Origin: Elusimicrobiales bacterium
GTDB lineage: Bacteria; Elusimicrobiota; Elusimicrobia; Elusimicrobiales; UBA9959
Reading direction: 5' to 3'
NCBI GenBank assembly: GCA_023701245.1
Contig: JAMPXK010000004.1
Span: 1-64,000, forward strand
Length of the DNA: 64,000 bases
Positions 19,147 through 61,337 of this stretch are shown here, in pieces. The position numbers and the translations under genes were made by a program. The stretch's first letter is position 1. Every line of letters begins with the position of its first letter. Below the pieces are notes generated by a model, which worked only from the letters and a program-made list of their open reading frames with translations, was not told the origin of the DNA and did not search any database.

Positions 19147-21093
19147 CTACCGGCCCACCTGCTGCTTGAAGCCGGCCAGCCATTCGGAGGCGGCGGGGTC
19201 GCCGGACAGGGCGGCGTACTTTTCATAGGCCGCCAGGGCTTCGTCCACGCGCTGCAGGGAATAGTAGACCGTGCCCAGGTACTGCCAGGCGGACGCGTCC
19301 CCGGGGTTCTGCGACGAGGCGTATTCCAGGTACTGCAGCGCCTCCGGCAGCTTGCCCTGGTTGTAAAGGTCCACGCCGGCGGCCAGGTATTGCGCGGCCT
19401 GGGCGGCGGCTTCGGCGGAAGGCCCCGCGGGAACCTCCTCTTTGGGAGCCGACATGCTCTCGAACTTTCTGCGGCGCTCGTCTCCGGAGGACATCTCCGC
19501 GCCGTCTATGATATAGACTTCCTGCGTATTGCCCTGGCGCACGTTGATCTTGCCCTCCGACTCCAGGGTCTTCACGGCGTCCAGGATCTTGGTCTGCGCC
19601 TCGTCCTGCAGGGCGGGCGTGATGTCGCCGGAGTACTCCATGATCTCCTTGATGGCGTTGACGGCGCCCTGCGACATGTTGGCGAAGAACTTGTTGACGA
19701 TGGCCGGGTCCGCCTTGGACACGGCGCGGGCGATGTCCTCGTTGGAAAGAGCGCGGATGATGGTCTGCATGTCGCGGTCCGGGAAATTCACGATATCCTC
19801 GAACATCAGCACGATGCGCTTGACCTTCTCGTAGATGTCGGGCTTCTGGGTCTTGAGGTACTCTATGATGTTCTTGCGGGTGGCCGGGTCCGAATCGTCC
19901 AGCATCTTTACCAGGCGCTCTATGCCGCCCATCACGAAGTCCACGTTCTCCTTTATATCCTTATCTATGGCGTCTATCTGCTCGCGCGTAGCCTGCCGCA
20001 CGGTCAGCGCCTCCAGCGCCACGCGGCTCTGCATCTCCACCGGCAGCATGGAAAGGGCCTGGCGGGACAGGTCAGGCTTAAGGTAGCTCAGCACCACGGC
20101 TATCACCCACGGGTCCTCTTTGCGCAGCAGGAACAGGTAGATGAGCCGCTTGAGGTTTTCCTCGTTCAGGTACGTAAAAGGCTCGAATTTCTTCATACTC
20201 TCGTCCTCGTCTTCCTTCGCCTCCGCTTCCTTCTGCAGGAAATTCATGTCTATGCTCTGGTGGCCTTCGGTCTCTTCCTTCCCCTCATCCTCGCCGCCGC
20301 CACCGCCCCCTTCCTCCCGCTTGTCCTCTATATTGACCTCGGCCCCCGGCTTGGCCAGCAGCGCCTTGATGTATTTGCGGAAAAAGCCCCAGAGCGGCCC
20401 GAAAAGGAACAATAGCAGTATAAGGAAAAGCAGCGCGTAAAGCAACGGCAGGTACACCCCGGGGCGCTTCAGGTCGTCGAGCCAGTTGTGCGCCTTGAAC
20501 TTGGTGGGCTTGAACAGCACCGTGGGCGCGTCCTTCTTGCGGATCTTGTAGGGCAGCAGGAAGTCGTCCACGCGTTCCCGGGCCAGCTTCAGGGTGGCCG
20601 GGGGCACCAGGTCGTCATGAATGACCGTGATCTGGAAGCGGGTGATCTCGGTCTCCAGCCCGTAGCGGATCTCCTGCACGCCCTTGGCCTGCTGCGCCTG
20701 CTGACCCTGGGCGGCCTCGGGACGCTTATTGTCGTCGCCCAGCACGCTCTTGGGCTTGGGAATGCCGGGCAGGATGAAATCGGTATCGGCGCCGGACCCC
20801 GCGCCGGTGCCTTTCTCCTTGTACTTCTGGATTACGCCCACGCCCTCCTTGGTCTGTTCGGCCTTCTTGGAGATGACCTCCAGTTCCACGTCCGCGAAAA
20901 CGAAGGACTTGTCCGCCCCCAGGATAGGGTCCAGGATCTCTTTCTTTATCTTGGTCTCGGTCTCCCGGCGCAGGGAATCCTGCCTTTCCATGAGGGAAGA
21001 CTCCATCAAAGGACTTACCGGAGCGTCCGCGGCGTATATCCGCGGCGCCCCGAAGCTCCCCAGGAGCAGCAGGCCGGCCAGTACTTTACTCAT
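19147..21093 (-). CDS. FliF-like / FliG-like fusion protein with C-terminal TPR
   Basis: Signal peptide; FliF-C-like ILDPILGADKSFVFADVELEVISKKAEQT; TM segment; FliG M/C-like LPVEMQSRVALEAL...GGIERLVKMLDDSDPATRKNIIEYLKTQKPDIYEKVKRIVLMFEDIVNFPDRDMQTIIRALSNEDIARAVSKADP; TPR-like C-terminus. Confidence 0.75.
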   Translation of the reverse strand: MSKVLAGLLLLGSFGAPRIYAADAPVSPLMESSLMERQDSLRRETETKIKKEILDPILGADKSFVFADVELEVISKKAEQTKEGVGVIQKYKEKGTGAGSGADTDFILPGIPKPKSVLGDDNKRPEAAQGQQAQQAKGVQEIRYGLETEITRFQITVIHDDLVPPATLKLARERVDDFLLPYKIRKKDAPTVLFKPTKFKAHNWLDDLKRPGVYLPLLYALLFLILLLFLFGPLWGFFRKYIKALLAKPGAEVNIEDKREEGGGGGGEDEGKEETEGHQSIDMNFLQKEAEAKEDEDESMKKFEPFTYLNEENLKRLIYLFLLRKEDPWVIAVVLSYLKPDLSRQALSMLPVEMQSRVALEALTVRQATREQIDAIDKDIKENVDFVMGGIERLVKMLDDSDPATRKNIIEYLKTQKPDIYEKVKRIVLMFEDIVNFPDRDMQTIIRALSNEDIARAVSKADPAIVNKFFANMSQGAVNAIKEIMEYSGDITPALQDEAQTKILDAVKTLESEGKINVRQGNTQEVYIIDGAEMSSGDERRRKFESMSAPKEEVPAGPSAEAAAQAAQYLAAGVDLYNQGKLPEALQYLEYASSQNPGDASAWQYLGTVYYSLQRVDEALAAYEKYAALSGDPAASEWLAGFKQQVGR

Positions 21094-21324: not shown

Positions 21325-22941
21325 TCAGCGGACCTGCCGCAGGAAGTTCTTGACTATGGAGTTGTTGGGATTGATCTCCACGACCTTCTCCCAGATGACC
21401 TTGGCCTTCTCCTTCTGGTCCATCAGGTAGAAGGCGCTGCCCATGATCTCCAGCGCGGTCTCGTTGTTGGGCTCCAGGTCCAGGATGTCCTGCGCGCGGC
21501 GCATGGCCAGGTCGTACTTGCCGTCATAGATGGCCTGGCGGGCGTCGTAGGTGCGCTGGTCGATGTAGGTGAAGATCTCGGGACCCTCGGGCTTGCGGGT
21601 CAGCTCGCTCACGCCGGCCTCTTTCTCCACCATGTTCAGGAGGCTGAGCAGGCGGTCGTTCTTCGGGTCCTTGTTGAAGGCGTGGCGCAGCACGTTGACC
21701 GAGGCGCGCATGTCCTTGCCGTCCACGTAGGCGATGATGCCGCGGCGGGTCAGGGTAGGCACTTCCTCGCCGCCGGTGGCGTCCGGCACGTAGTCCACGG
21801 CGCCCTGCAGGCGGGTCACCATGCGGCGGATCTCGGCGTTGCCGGGGTCCGCGTCCTGGGCGGCGCGCAGCTTCTCCATGGCGCGGGTGAAGTAGCCGGA
21901 CTTGAAGTACTGCAGGGCCTGGCGGATGATCTCGCGGACCTCGCGGTCATGCTTGCTCTTGTTGGAGTTGCCCATGCGCATGGTCACGGAAAAGCGGGTG
22001 GTGGTACCCAGCGCGTGCACGCCCTGGGCTATGTCGAAGCCGAAGTTCTTGTACTTGATGCCCAGGCCGAAGTCGGCCTCCTGGATGCCGGGGGTCCCCA
22101 TCACGCCGAAGCGCAGGGCGCTCCAGTACATCAGCCAGTACTCGCCGCCGAAGCGCCAGTTGGTGGCGGAATTCTGGGGCTTGGCGATGTCGAAACCGAA
22201 CACCAGGCTGCCCTTGAACAGGGAGAGGGCCTGGCCGAACTTCAGGGTCAGGGGCAGCTTGTCGTCCGTGTCCCCGGAAGCCATCGAGAAGACGTTCTGG
22301 ATGCCTATGGCGGCGCGGTAGGTCTTGGAGAACTTCTGCAGCATCGCTATGTCGATGGCGTTGAAAGAGTCGGCGGAAGTGTCCAGGGTGCGGGAGATGT
22401 TCTTGGCCATCACGCCGAAAGCCAGCTTGTCGGACACGTCGCGGCCCCAGGAGAAGGCCAGGGCGCGCTCGGTGCTGTCGAAGGTGCCCAGGGTCTTGAT
22501 GTCTATGATCTCGTCCCCGGCCGGGTTGGCGGTGATCTCGATCTTCTCGAAACCGGTGGACTGCAGCTGGGTCATGCTGATGGCCCAGGTGCCCTTGGTG
22601 GTGGTGGGGTGCGCGTAGGTGAAGAAATTGAGGGTGGTCTGCTCGAACAGGGTCGCCTGCATGGCGGTGAACTCTTTGCGCTCCAGCAGGGTCAGGGCGG
22701 CGGGGTTCCAGTAGGAGGCGGAAGCGTCATCGGCCACCGCAAAGAAGGCGCCGCCCATGCCCAGGCCGCGGGCGCCGGCGCCGTAGCCCATGAAGGCCCC
22801 GGGCTGGCCGCCGCTCTGGGCCAGGGCGGAAACGGCCGAAAACGCAATAAAAAACCCCACGGCGGGGCTGAAGCGTATAACACGCTTCACTATAGCCCTA
22901 ATAGCCAAGGGGGCAAAAGCATTAACAATAATGCGTTTCAT
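21325..22941 (-). CDS. PorV/UPF0164-like outer membrane barrel with C-terminal TPR domain
   Basis: GAGARGLGMGGAFFAVADDASASYWNPAALTLL signature of the PorV/UPF0164 group; C-terminal TPR-like DILDLEPNNETALEIMGSAFYLMDQKEKAKVIWEKVVEINPNN. A GTG at 22890 giving MKRVIRFSPAVGFFIAFSAVSALAQ is a plausible alternative start. Confidence 0.8.
   Translation of the reverse strand: MKRIIVNAFAPLAIRAIVKRVIRFSPAVGFFIAFSAVSALAQSGGQPGAFMGYGAGARGLGMGGAFFAVADDASASYWNPAALTLLERKEFTAMQATLFEQTTLNFFTYAHPTTTKGTWAISMTQLQSTGFEKIEITANPAGDEIIDIKTLGTFDSTERALAFSWGRDVSDKLAFGVMAKNISRTLDTSADSFNAIDIAMLQKFSKTYRAAIGIQNVFSMASGDTDDKLPLTLKFGQALSLFKGSLVFGFDIAKPQNSATNWRFGGEYWLMYWSALRFGVMGTPGIQEADFGLGIKYKNFGFDIAQGVHALGTTTRFSVTMRMGNSNKSKHDREVREIIRQALQYFKSGYFTRAMEKLRAAQDADPGNAEIRRMVTRLQGAVDYVPDATGGEEVPTLTRRGIIAYVDGKDMRASVNVLRHAFNKDPKNDRLLSLLNMVEKEAGVSELTRKPEGPEIFTYIDQRTYDARQAIYDGKYDLAMRRAQDILDLEPNNETALEIMGSAFYLMDQKEKAKVIWEKVVEINPNNSIVKNFLRQVR
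22849..22869 (-). terminator. Terminator-like hairpin plus T6 just downstream of riboswitch 1 (inside the annotated 5' coding end)
   Basis: Minus-strand AGCCCC-GCCG-TGGGGTTTTTT; preceded by hairpin GAAGCGT-GTTAT-ACGCTTC (22870-22888). Confidence 0.4.
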
Positions 22942-23024
22942 CGTTTTCGGCAGCCTGACCCCCGCTCACTTAGCGGGTCTTAGCTTTGCGCCGCCGGCTT
23001 TCGCCGGCTTTGCTATTATCGTAA
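22942..23024 (-). ncRNA. GEMM-I (cyclic dinucleotide) riboswitch-like leader of the PorV-like gene
   Basis: Minus strand GATAATAGCAAAGCCGGCGAAAGCCGGCGGCGCAAAGCTAAGACCCGCTAAGTGAGCGGGGGTCAGGCTGCCGAAAACG. Matches GEMM-I landmarks: GCAAA, P2 stem capped by GAAA, GGCGCAAAGC(T/C), P3 stem, GGCTGCCGA. Confidence 0.8.
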
Positions 23025-23066: not shown

Positions 23067-23094
23067 ATTATAGCAGATTAAAACGGTTTGTCAA
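23067..23094 (-). promoter_or_regulatory. Sigma70-type promoter for the PorV-like transcript
   Basis: Minus strand TTGACA (23089-23094), 16-nt spacer AACCGTTTTAATCTGC, TATAAT (23067-23072). Confidence 0.8.
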
Positions 23095-23140
23095 GCCCTA
23101 TCTCTTGACATGTCAACCCCCCTCCAAATCGCTTGGTCGA

Positions 23141-60784: not shown

Positions 60785-61001
60785 TTTTATATAACAAGGA
60801 ACGGCCCGGCCAAGGAGGTTTCTTTTTCCTTTGTCGGGTCGTTCAGTGCCATCCTATTATAATATATAAATATTGTTACGGAAAGGTTACAAACGGATAA
60901 AATGGATATTTCGCGGCAGGGCAATAAAATAGCCGCTGCGGCCCAAGCCGCACCGGCACCTAAAAACATATAACAGAGGGTATAGCACCACTCTTTCATA
61001 G

Positions 61002-61082
61002 TCATCTTCGGCAGCCAGGCAACCCCCGCGGGCCCTCAGCTTTGCGCCGCCGGCTTTGGCCGGCTTTGCTATTGTCGGATAC
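61002..61082 (-). ncRNA. GEMM-I (cyclic dinucleotide) riboswitch-like leader of the giant gene
   Basis: Minus strand ATCCGACAATAGCAAAGCCGGCCAAAGCCGGCGGCGCAAAGCTGAGGGCCCGCGGGGGTTGCCTGGCTGCCGAAGATGAC; same landmarks as the 22942-23024 copy, but the P2 loop is CAAA instead of GAAA. Confidence 0.77.
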
Positions 61083-61277: not shown

Positions 61278-61305
61278 ATTATAGCAGACGCACGGCATTT
61301 GTCAA
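61278..61305 (-). promoter_or_regulatory. Sigma70-type promoter for the giant-gene transcript
   Basis: Minus strand TTGACA (61300-61305), 16-nt spacer AATGCCGTGCGTCTGC, TATAAT (61278-61283). Confidence 0.8.
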
Positions 61306-61337
61306 GGCCCAATCCCTTGACAGGTCAAGCGGCAAGC

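Follow-up and report, generated by a model that had tools for sequence, protein, structure and literature searches.

An A20 GEMM-I riboswitch of an Elusimicrobiales bacterium: c-di-GMP as its most likely ligand and a proposed OFF-type translational output

c-di-GMP is a common signal and cGAMP a rarer one, and a riboswitch on the minus strand of the 64,000-nt stretch of Elusimicrobiales DNA analysed here (the window) raises the question of which of the two it senses. An earlier note had placed A opposite G20 of the Vc2 riboswitch and proposed that the element (riboswitch 1) responds to cGAMP or has dual specificity. With a probability of about 0.56, we favor a different reading: this is a GEMM-I riboswitch with A20 whose cellular ligand is most likely c-di-GMP, recognised with loosened discrimination, and which would act as an OFF-type translational switch.

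Two GEMM-I aptamers with A at position 20

In a cmscan search, riboswitch 1 aligns end to end with RF01051 (E 1.6e-9; the gathering score of the model is 35), without gaps over model positions 1-50, and both aptamers of the window span model positions 1-87 (Table 1). The base at model position 11 is A; this position immediately precedes G12 and C13, which pair with C37 and G36 below P2, and corresponds to G20 in Vc2 numbering. In GSU1761 it is A14 (PMC6274999). The covariance alignment thus bears out the assignment made earlier by eye, together with the statement that the equivalents of A47 and C92 are conserved. The P2 loop of riboswitch 1 is GAAA, and its J1/2, CGAUAAUA, is GEMM-Ib-like, with A at position 20, yet the G21-C46 pair of GEMM-Ia is retained. 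Riboswitch 1 is therefore a genuine GEMM-I riboswitch with A20.

Table 1. Features of the two riboswitch loci (window coordinates)
Feature	Position	Strand	Evidence or remark
Riboswitch 1, GEMM-I (c-di-GMP-I) aptamer	22946-23024	-	cmscan RF01051, 61.2 bits, full length
A at Vc2 G20/GSU1761 A14 position	23014	-	CM alignment position 11; A in 69/73 family GEMM-I loci
G12-C13 (G21-C22 of Vc2), pairing with C37 (22988) and G36 (22989) as unflipped ligand-flanking pairs	23012-23013	-	CM alignment
A47 equivalent, base stacked between both ligand bases	22987	-	CM position 38
CC with C92 equivalent	22950-22951	-	CM positions 82-83
Predicted hairpin sequestering P1 5′ strand, alternative to P1	23021-23049	-	MFE fold
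Promoter of riboswitch 1, perfect TTGACA-16-TATAAT, TG before -10	23067-23094	-	12/12 matches
Candidate operator, palindromic (TTGACATGTCAA), 22 nt upstream of -35	23105-23116	-	Same element upstream of riboswitch 2
Hairpin GCAUU/AAUGC within codons 3-8	22919-22934	-	100% of cells paired
Gene under riboswitch 1 control, encoding a FadL/PorV-like outer-membrane protein with signal peptide and TPR	21325-22941	-	
Riboswitch 2, GEMM-I aptamer with unflipped pairs, a CAAA loop on P2 and A20 at 61070	61007-61080	-	cmscan, 55.1 bits
Riboswitch 2 promoter: TTGACA-16-TATAAT, perfect match, plus TG	61278-61305	-	
Palindrome TTGACCTGTCAA, upstream of riboswitch 2 promoter	61317-61328	-	
72-aa ORF, start just after riboswitch 2, end adjoining start of giant ORF 23279-60784	60787-61005	-	

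The assembly (2.55 Mb, 92.8% complete) yielded only two GEMM-I elements, and both lie within the window, on its minus strand. The second one, riboswitch 2, also has A at the Vc2-G20 position, which the earlier note had overlooked, and the remaining contact bases are conserved in both aptamers according to the covariance alignment. The giant ORF downstream of riboswitch 2 (23279-60784, minus strand) is uninterrupted, codes for 12,501 aa and is rich in repeated segments; it is of surface type, and there is no cytochrome/pilus regulon at this location.

With GEMM-Ia (c-di-GMP-I) riboswitches (RF01051; Vc2, Cd1), the window elements share the fold, P2, P3, A47, C92, G21-C46 and C22-G45, as well as a placement just before cell-surface genes. 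They differ from GEMM-Ia in having A rather than G at position 20 and, in riboswitch 2, in the P2 loop, which is not GNRA; P3 of family riboswitch groups A-C (see below) also lacks the CUAA receptor stretch.

Promoters and proposed expression platform

The extended -10 promoter of riboswitch 1 is located 42 nt upstream of the aptamer; when a 601-bp region was shuffled, a mean of 0.2 promoter-like sites with ≥9/12 matches was obtained. At both riboswitch promoters a palindrome lies 22-23 nt upstream of the -35 element, and a TTGAC-NN-GTCAA palindrome is present upstream of 57 of the 70 family riboswitches. As its centre varies, this element looks like a candidate operator.

The AUG of the riboswitch 1-controlled gene is 4 nt past the aptamer, and both the start codon and the reading frame are kept in orthologs, whose indels are in frame. 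The gene product matches Pfam TPR above the cut-off and OMPP1/FadL below it. Directly downstream, the 19147-21093 region (minus strand) encodes a membrane protein that combines TPR with the middle and C-terminal domains of FliG. Thus, the genes that follow riboswitch 1 code for FadL/TPR and FliG-like proteins, with no cytochrome/pilus regulon among them.

Upon ligand binding, P1 would close, and the end of its 3′ strand, GCCGAA (with AAC next), is 4 nt upstream of the AUG, so that closed P1 would occlude initiation at the outer-membrane-protein operon. Since ligand-closed P1 would cover the start region, an OFF-type translational switch is the simplest direction to infer. The P1 5′ strand could alternatively pair with an upstream segment in the predicted anti-P1 hairpin, whose GTAAC...GTTACG sequences are conserved in orthologs as judged by eye. 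The hairpin within codons 3-8 possibly aids the block of initiation. It covaries, a UA->AU double change being present in 7 of 19 distinct sequences, and since residues I and N swap places, the pairing is not explained by protein conservation.

Several other structures were considered at this locus. A long-range CCGAAAACG/CGUUUUCGG pairing, seen in the window fold, was dropped as a platform because it is broken in orthologs, and two hairpins resembling terminators on the plus strand (22993-23008 and 22961-22977) were discounted as lying within the P2/P3 span of the aptamer. A U-tailed hairpin (22869-22853) sits inside the conserved reading frame. Elsewhere in the family, riboswitches of group C (L042, L058, L062 and L020) have a long intrinsic terminator after the aptamer, whose UCUUCGG can in most copies also base-pair with CCGAAGA, the 3′ strand of the aptamer, forming a putative transcriptional platform. 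Given this strong terminator, the family has more than one type of output.

Distribution of A20 and the ligand-flanking pairs

GEMM-I elements are present in 31 of 61 genomes (the window genome and its relatives). All 73 matches were read: 69 have A20 and four have G20; the A20 of riboswitch 1 is therefore no chance difference. Four groups can be told apart among the family riboswitches: A, with riboswitch 1; B, with riboswitch 2; C, which has a terminator platform; and D, in which P2 is long. A20 is present across all four, while elsewhere in Elusimicrobiota 26 of the 29 sampled loci (a single one from each genome, picked by score) have G20. Members with G20 occur in sister genera both within groups A-C and within group D, which suggests that A20 probably spread at least twice within the family. 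Such recurrence in at least two paralogous groups, with other families mostly G20, looks like selection and could reflect a switch of ligand; near-fixation of A20 in several paralogs is what speaks most strongly for a genuine change of ligand.

A scan of GTDB retrieved A20 loci from Geobacterales, Firmicutes, Omnitrophota, Elusimicrobiota and a few others. The deltaproteobacterial consensus is CGAYAAUA-CU-AAA...CG-G-AAAGC: in 39 of 42 of these A20 loci, C21-G46/U22-G45 (CU/GG) replaces G21-C46/C22-G45. The flipped pairs are found in 0 of 48 A20 loci outside deltaproteobacteria. All 14 Elusimicrobiota loci with the A20 pattern have unflipped GC/GC pairs, and so do the other non-deltaproteobacterial A20 loci except one (GC/GT). 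Use of the flip as a criterion for GEMM-Ib was derived here from this sequence comparison, by which the link between A20 and the flip appears strong though not absolute: L335, in the most deeply read Geobacter genome, has A20 with unflipped pairs. The GEMM-I sets of five Geobacterales genomes showed that A20-CU aptamers coexist with G20 aptamers.

As can be seen, the window riboswitches resemble Geobacter GEMM-Ib, the cGAMP riboswitches (GSU1761, Gmet_0970), in A20 and in a J1/2 of CGAYAAUA, but both retain G21-C46 and lack the C21-G46/U22-G45 flip; moreover, their target genes are neither cytochromes nor pili, and the genome is without a Hypr GGDEF. Other counterparts are the A20 loci that Firmicutes and Omnitrophota contain (L283, L286 and L290, for instance), which share CGAUAAUAGCAAA, the GC/GC pairs and a genome with no GacA ortholog, although, unlike the window elements, they mostly have a GAAA loop together with a CUAA receptor. 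The view that a G-to-A change at position 20 defines GEMM-Ib does not hold, since A20 occurs in Firmicutes and Omnitrophota lacking GacA and on its own is no marker.

Candidate sources of cGAMP and the likely ligand

In the Hypr enzymes known, Ser (or Thr) replaces Asp at the base-reading position (348) and a GGDE[FY] motif is present; Asp at this position drives GTP specificity (PMC6456294). The search for a Hypr-type GGDEF that the earlier note had suggested was negative in the window genome: its six GGDEF domains (one GGDEI, two GGEEF and three response-regulator GGDDF) all have Asp. Nor was the Hypr residue found in 17 family genomes, where 50/50 full-length and 23/23 degenerate GGDEFs read have Asp. 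Several matches to the Hypr pattern, including L199, contained no GGDEF domain in a later motif scan. As a positive control, GacA orthologs with GHLxGS were recovered from 10/10 deltaproteobacterial A20 genomes tested; none was detected in the remaining A20 genomes searched, nor among 248 Elusimicrobiota genomes, where the best matches reach ≤51% identity. The top GacA matches read from Elusimicrobiota have Asp, apart from two Asn cases, a third being L374; L374, L426 and L427 are Elusimicrobiota GGDEFs in which Asn (GHxMGN) replaces the base-reading Asp and the motif reads GGEEF. A search for SMODS (PF18144, DncV-like CD-NTase) gave no match in 17 family genomes, while the control search was positive in E. 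coli. One synthase could be missing from the 92.8% complete window genome, though not from all its relatives.

The c-di-GMP signalling parts of the family are ordinary diguanylate cyclases and PilZ proteins, PilZ domains being present in 10 of 11 genomes, the window genome included. Two adjacent GGDEF genes with GGEEF motifs (L004/L005, G000:C11:8142-9838) are paired in nearly all family genomes read; one member has His at the cross-dimer position, as do some GacA orthologs. Similar gene pairs also occur in Omnitrophota.

That position 20 steers selectivity follows from the cGAMP-selective Gmet_0970 aptamer, which A20G alone converts to a c-di-GMP one (PMC6456294). However, Cd1, a c-di-GMP aptamer, showed no large change in ligand binding with the equivalent mutation, G11A (PMC9262584), and, in the account of Keller 2018 given in PMC9262584, the adenine is protonated when cGAMP riboswitches bind c-di-GMP. 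Since A20 on an unflipped scaffold is common without a GacA ortholog and the Cd1 effect is not large, c-di-GMP is the likely cellular ligand; the genome has no known cGAMP enzymes and the second pocket change is absent, and c-di-GMP is therefore most likely still sensed. In vitro, riboswitch 1 would probably bind cGAMP too. Thus, of the original proposal, dual specificity in vitro remains plausible, while a cGAMP-specific switch finds no support in the unflipped pairs, the negative Hypr search or Cd1 G11A, and the step from A20 to cGAMP sensing is weak.

We consider it unlikely that riboswitch 1 is selective for cGAMP made by a non-Hypr enzyme, such as the conserved GGDEI protein or a heterodimer of the adjacent GGEEF enzymes. 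The invariance of Asp in the GGDEFs read, the absence of SMODS and of GacA orthologs (0/248) and the missing flip have to be set against A20 in all four paralog groups, a J1/2 identical to that of Geobacter GEMM-Ib, the Gmet_0970 result and the wide conservation of the GGEEF pair with its GacA-like His. Extending this to a family-wide cGAMP regulon, independent of that of Geobacter, with unflipped A20 and a non-Hypr synthase (perhaps the adjacent-GGDEF heterodimer), is a slightly more doubtful proposition. A switch responsive to both c-di-GMP and cGAMP inside the cell seems more improbable still: A20 on an unflipped scaffold does resemble the G20A mutant of Vc2, of which crystals with cGAMP were obtained (PMC6274999, PMC7288161), but the GGDEF, SMODS and GacA searches revealed no source of cGAMP. 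Finally, A20 might be drift in a decaying riboswitch that has lost its ligand response, as the modest family scores (most about 45-61 bits) and the loss of the P2 GNRA loop in many copies would allow; this is very improbable, given that the other pocket bases are retained in the copies read, P2 changes are compensated, conservation extends to promoters and start codons, and A20 is nearly invariant.

Our preferred reading, c-di-GMP sensing by an A20 aptamer, implies that A20 alone is an unsafe sequence label for cGAMP sensing. At the level of whole genomes, a Hypr synthase accompanies A20 combined with the flipped pair, and genomes in which a GacA-type synthase was not found widely have A20 on an ordinary scaffold. 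Should the riboswitch sense cGAMP rather than c-di-GMP after all, an unrecognised cGAMP synthase must exist across a whole bacterial family.
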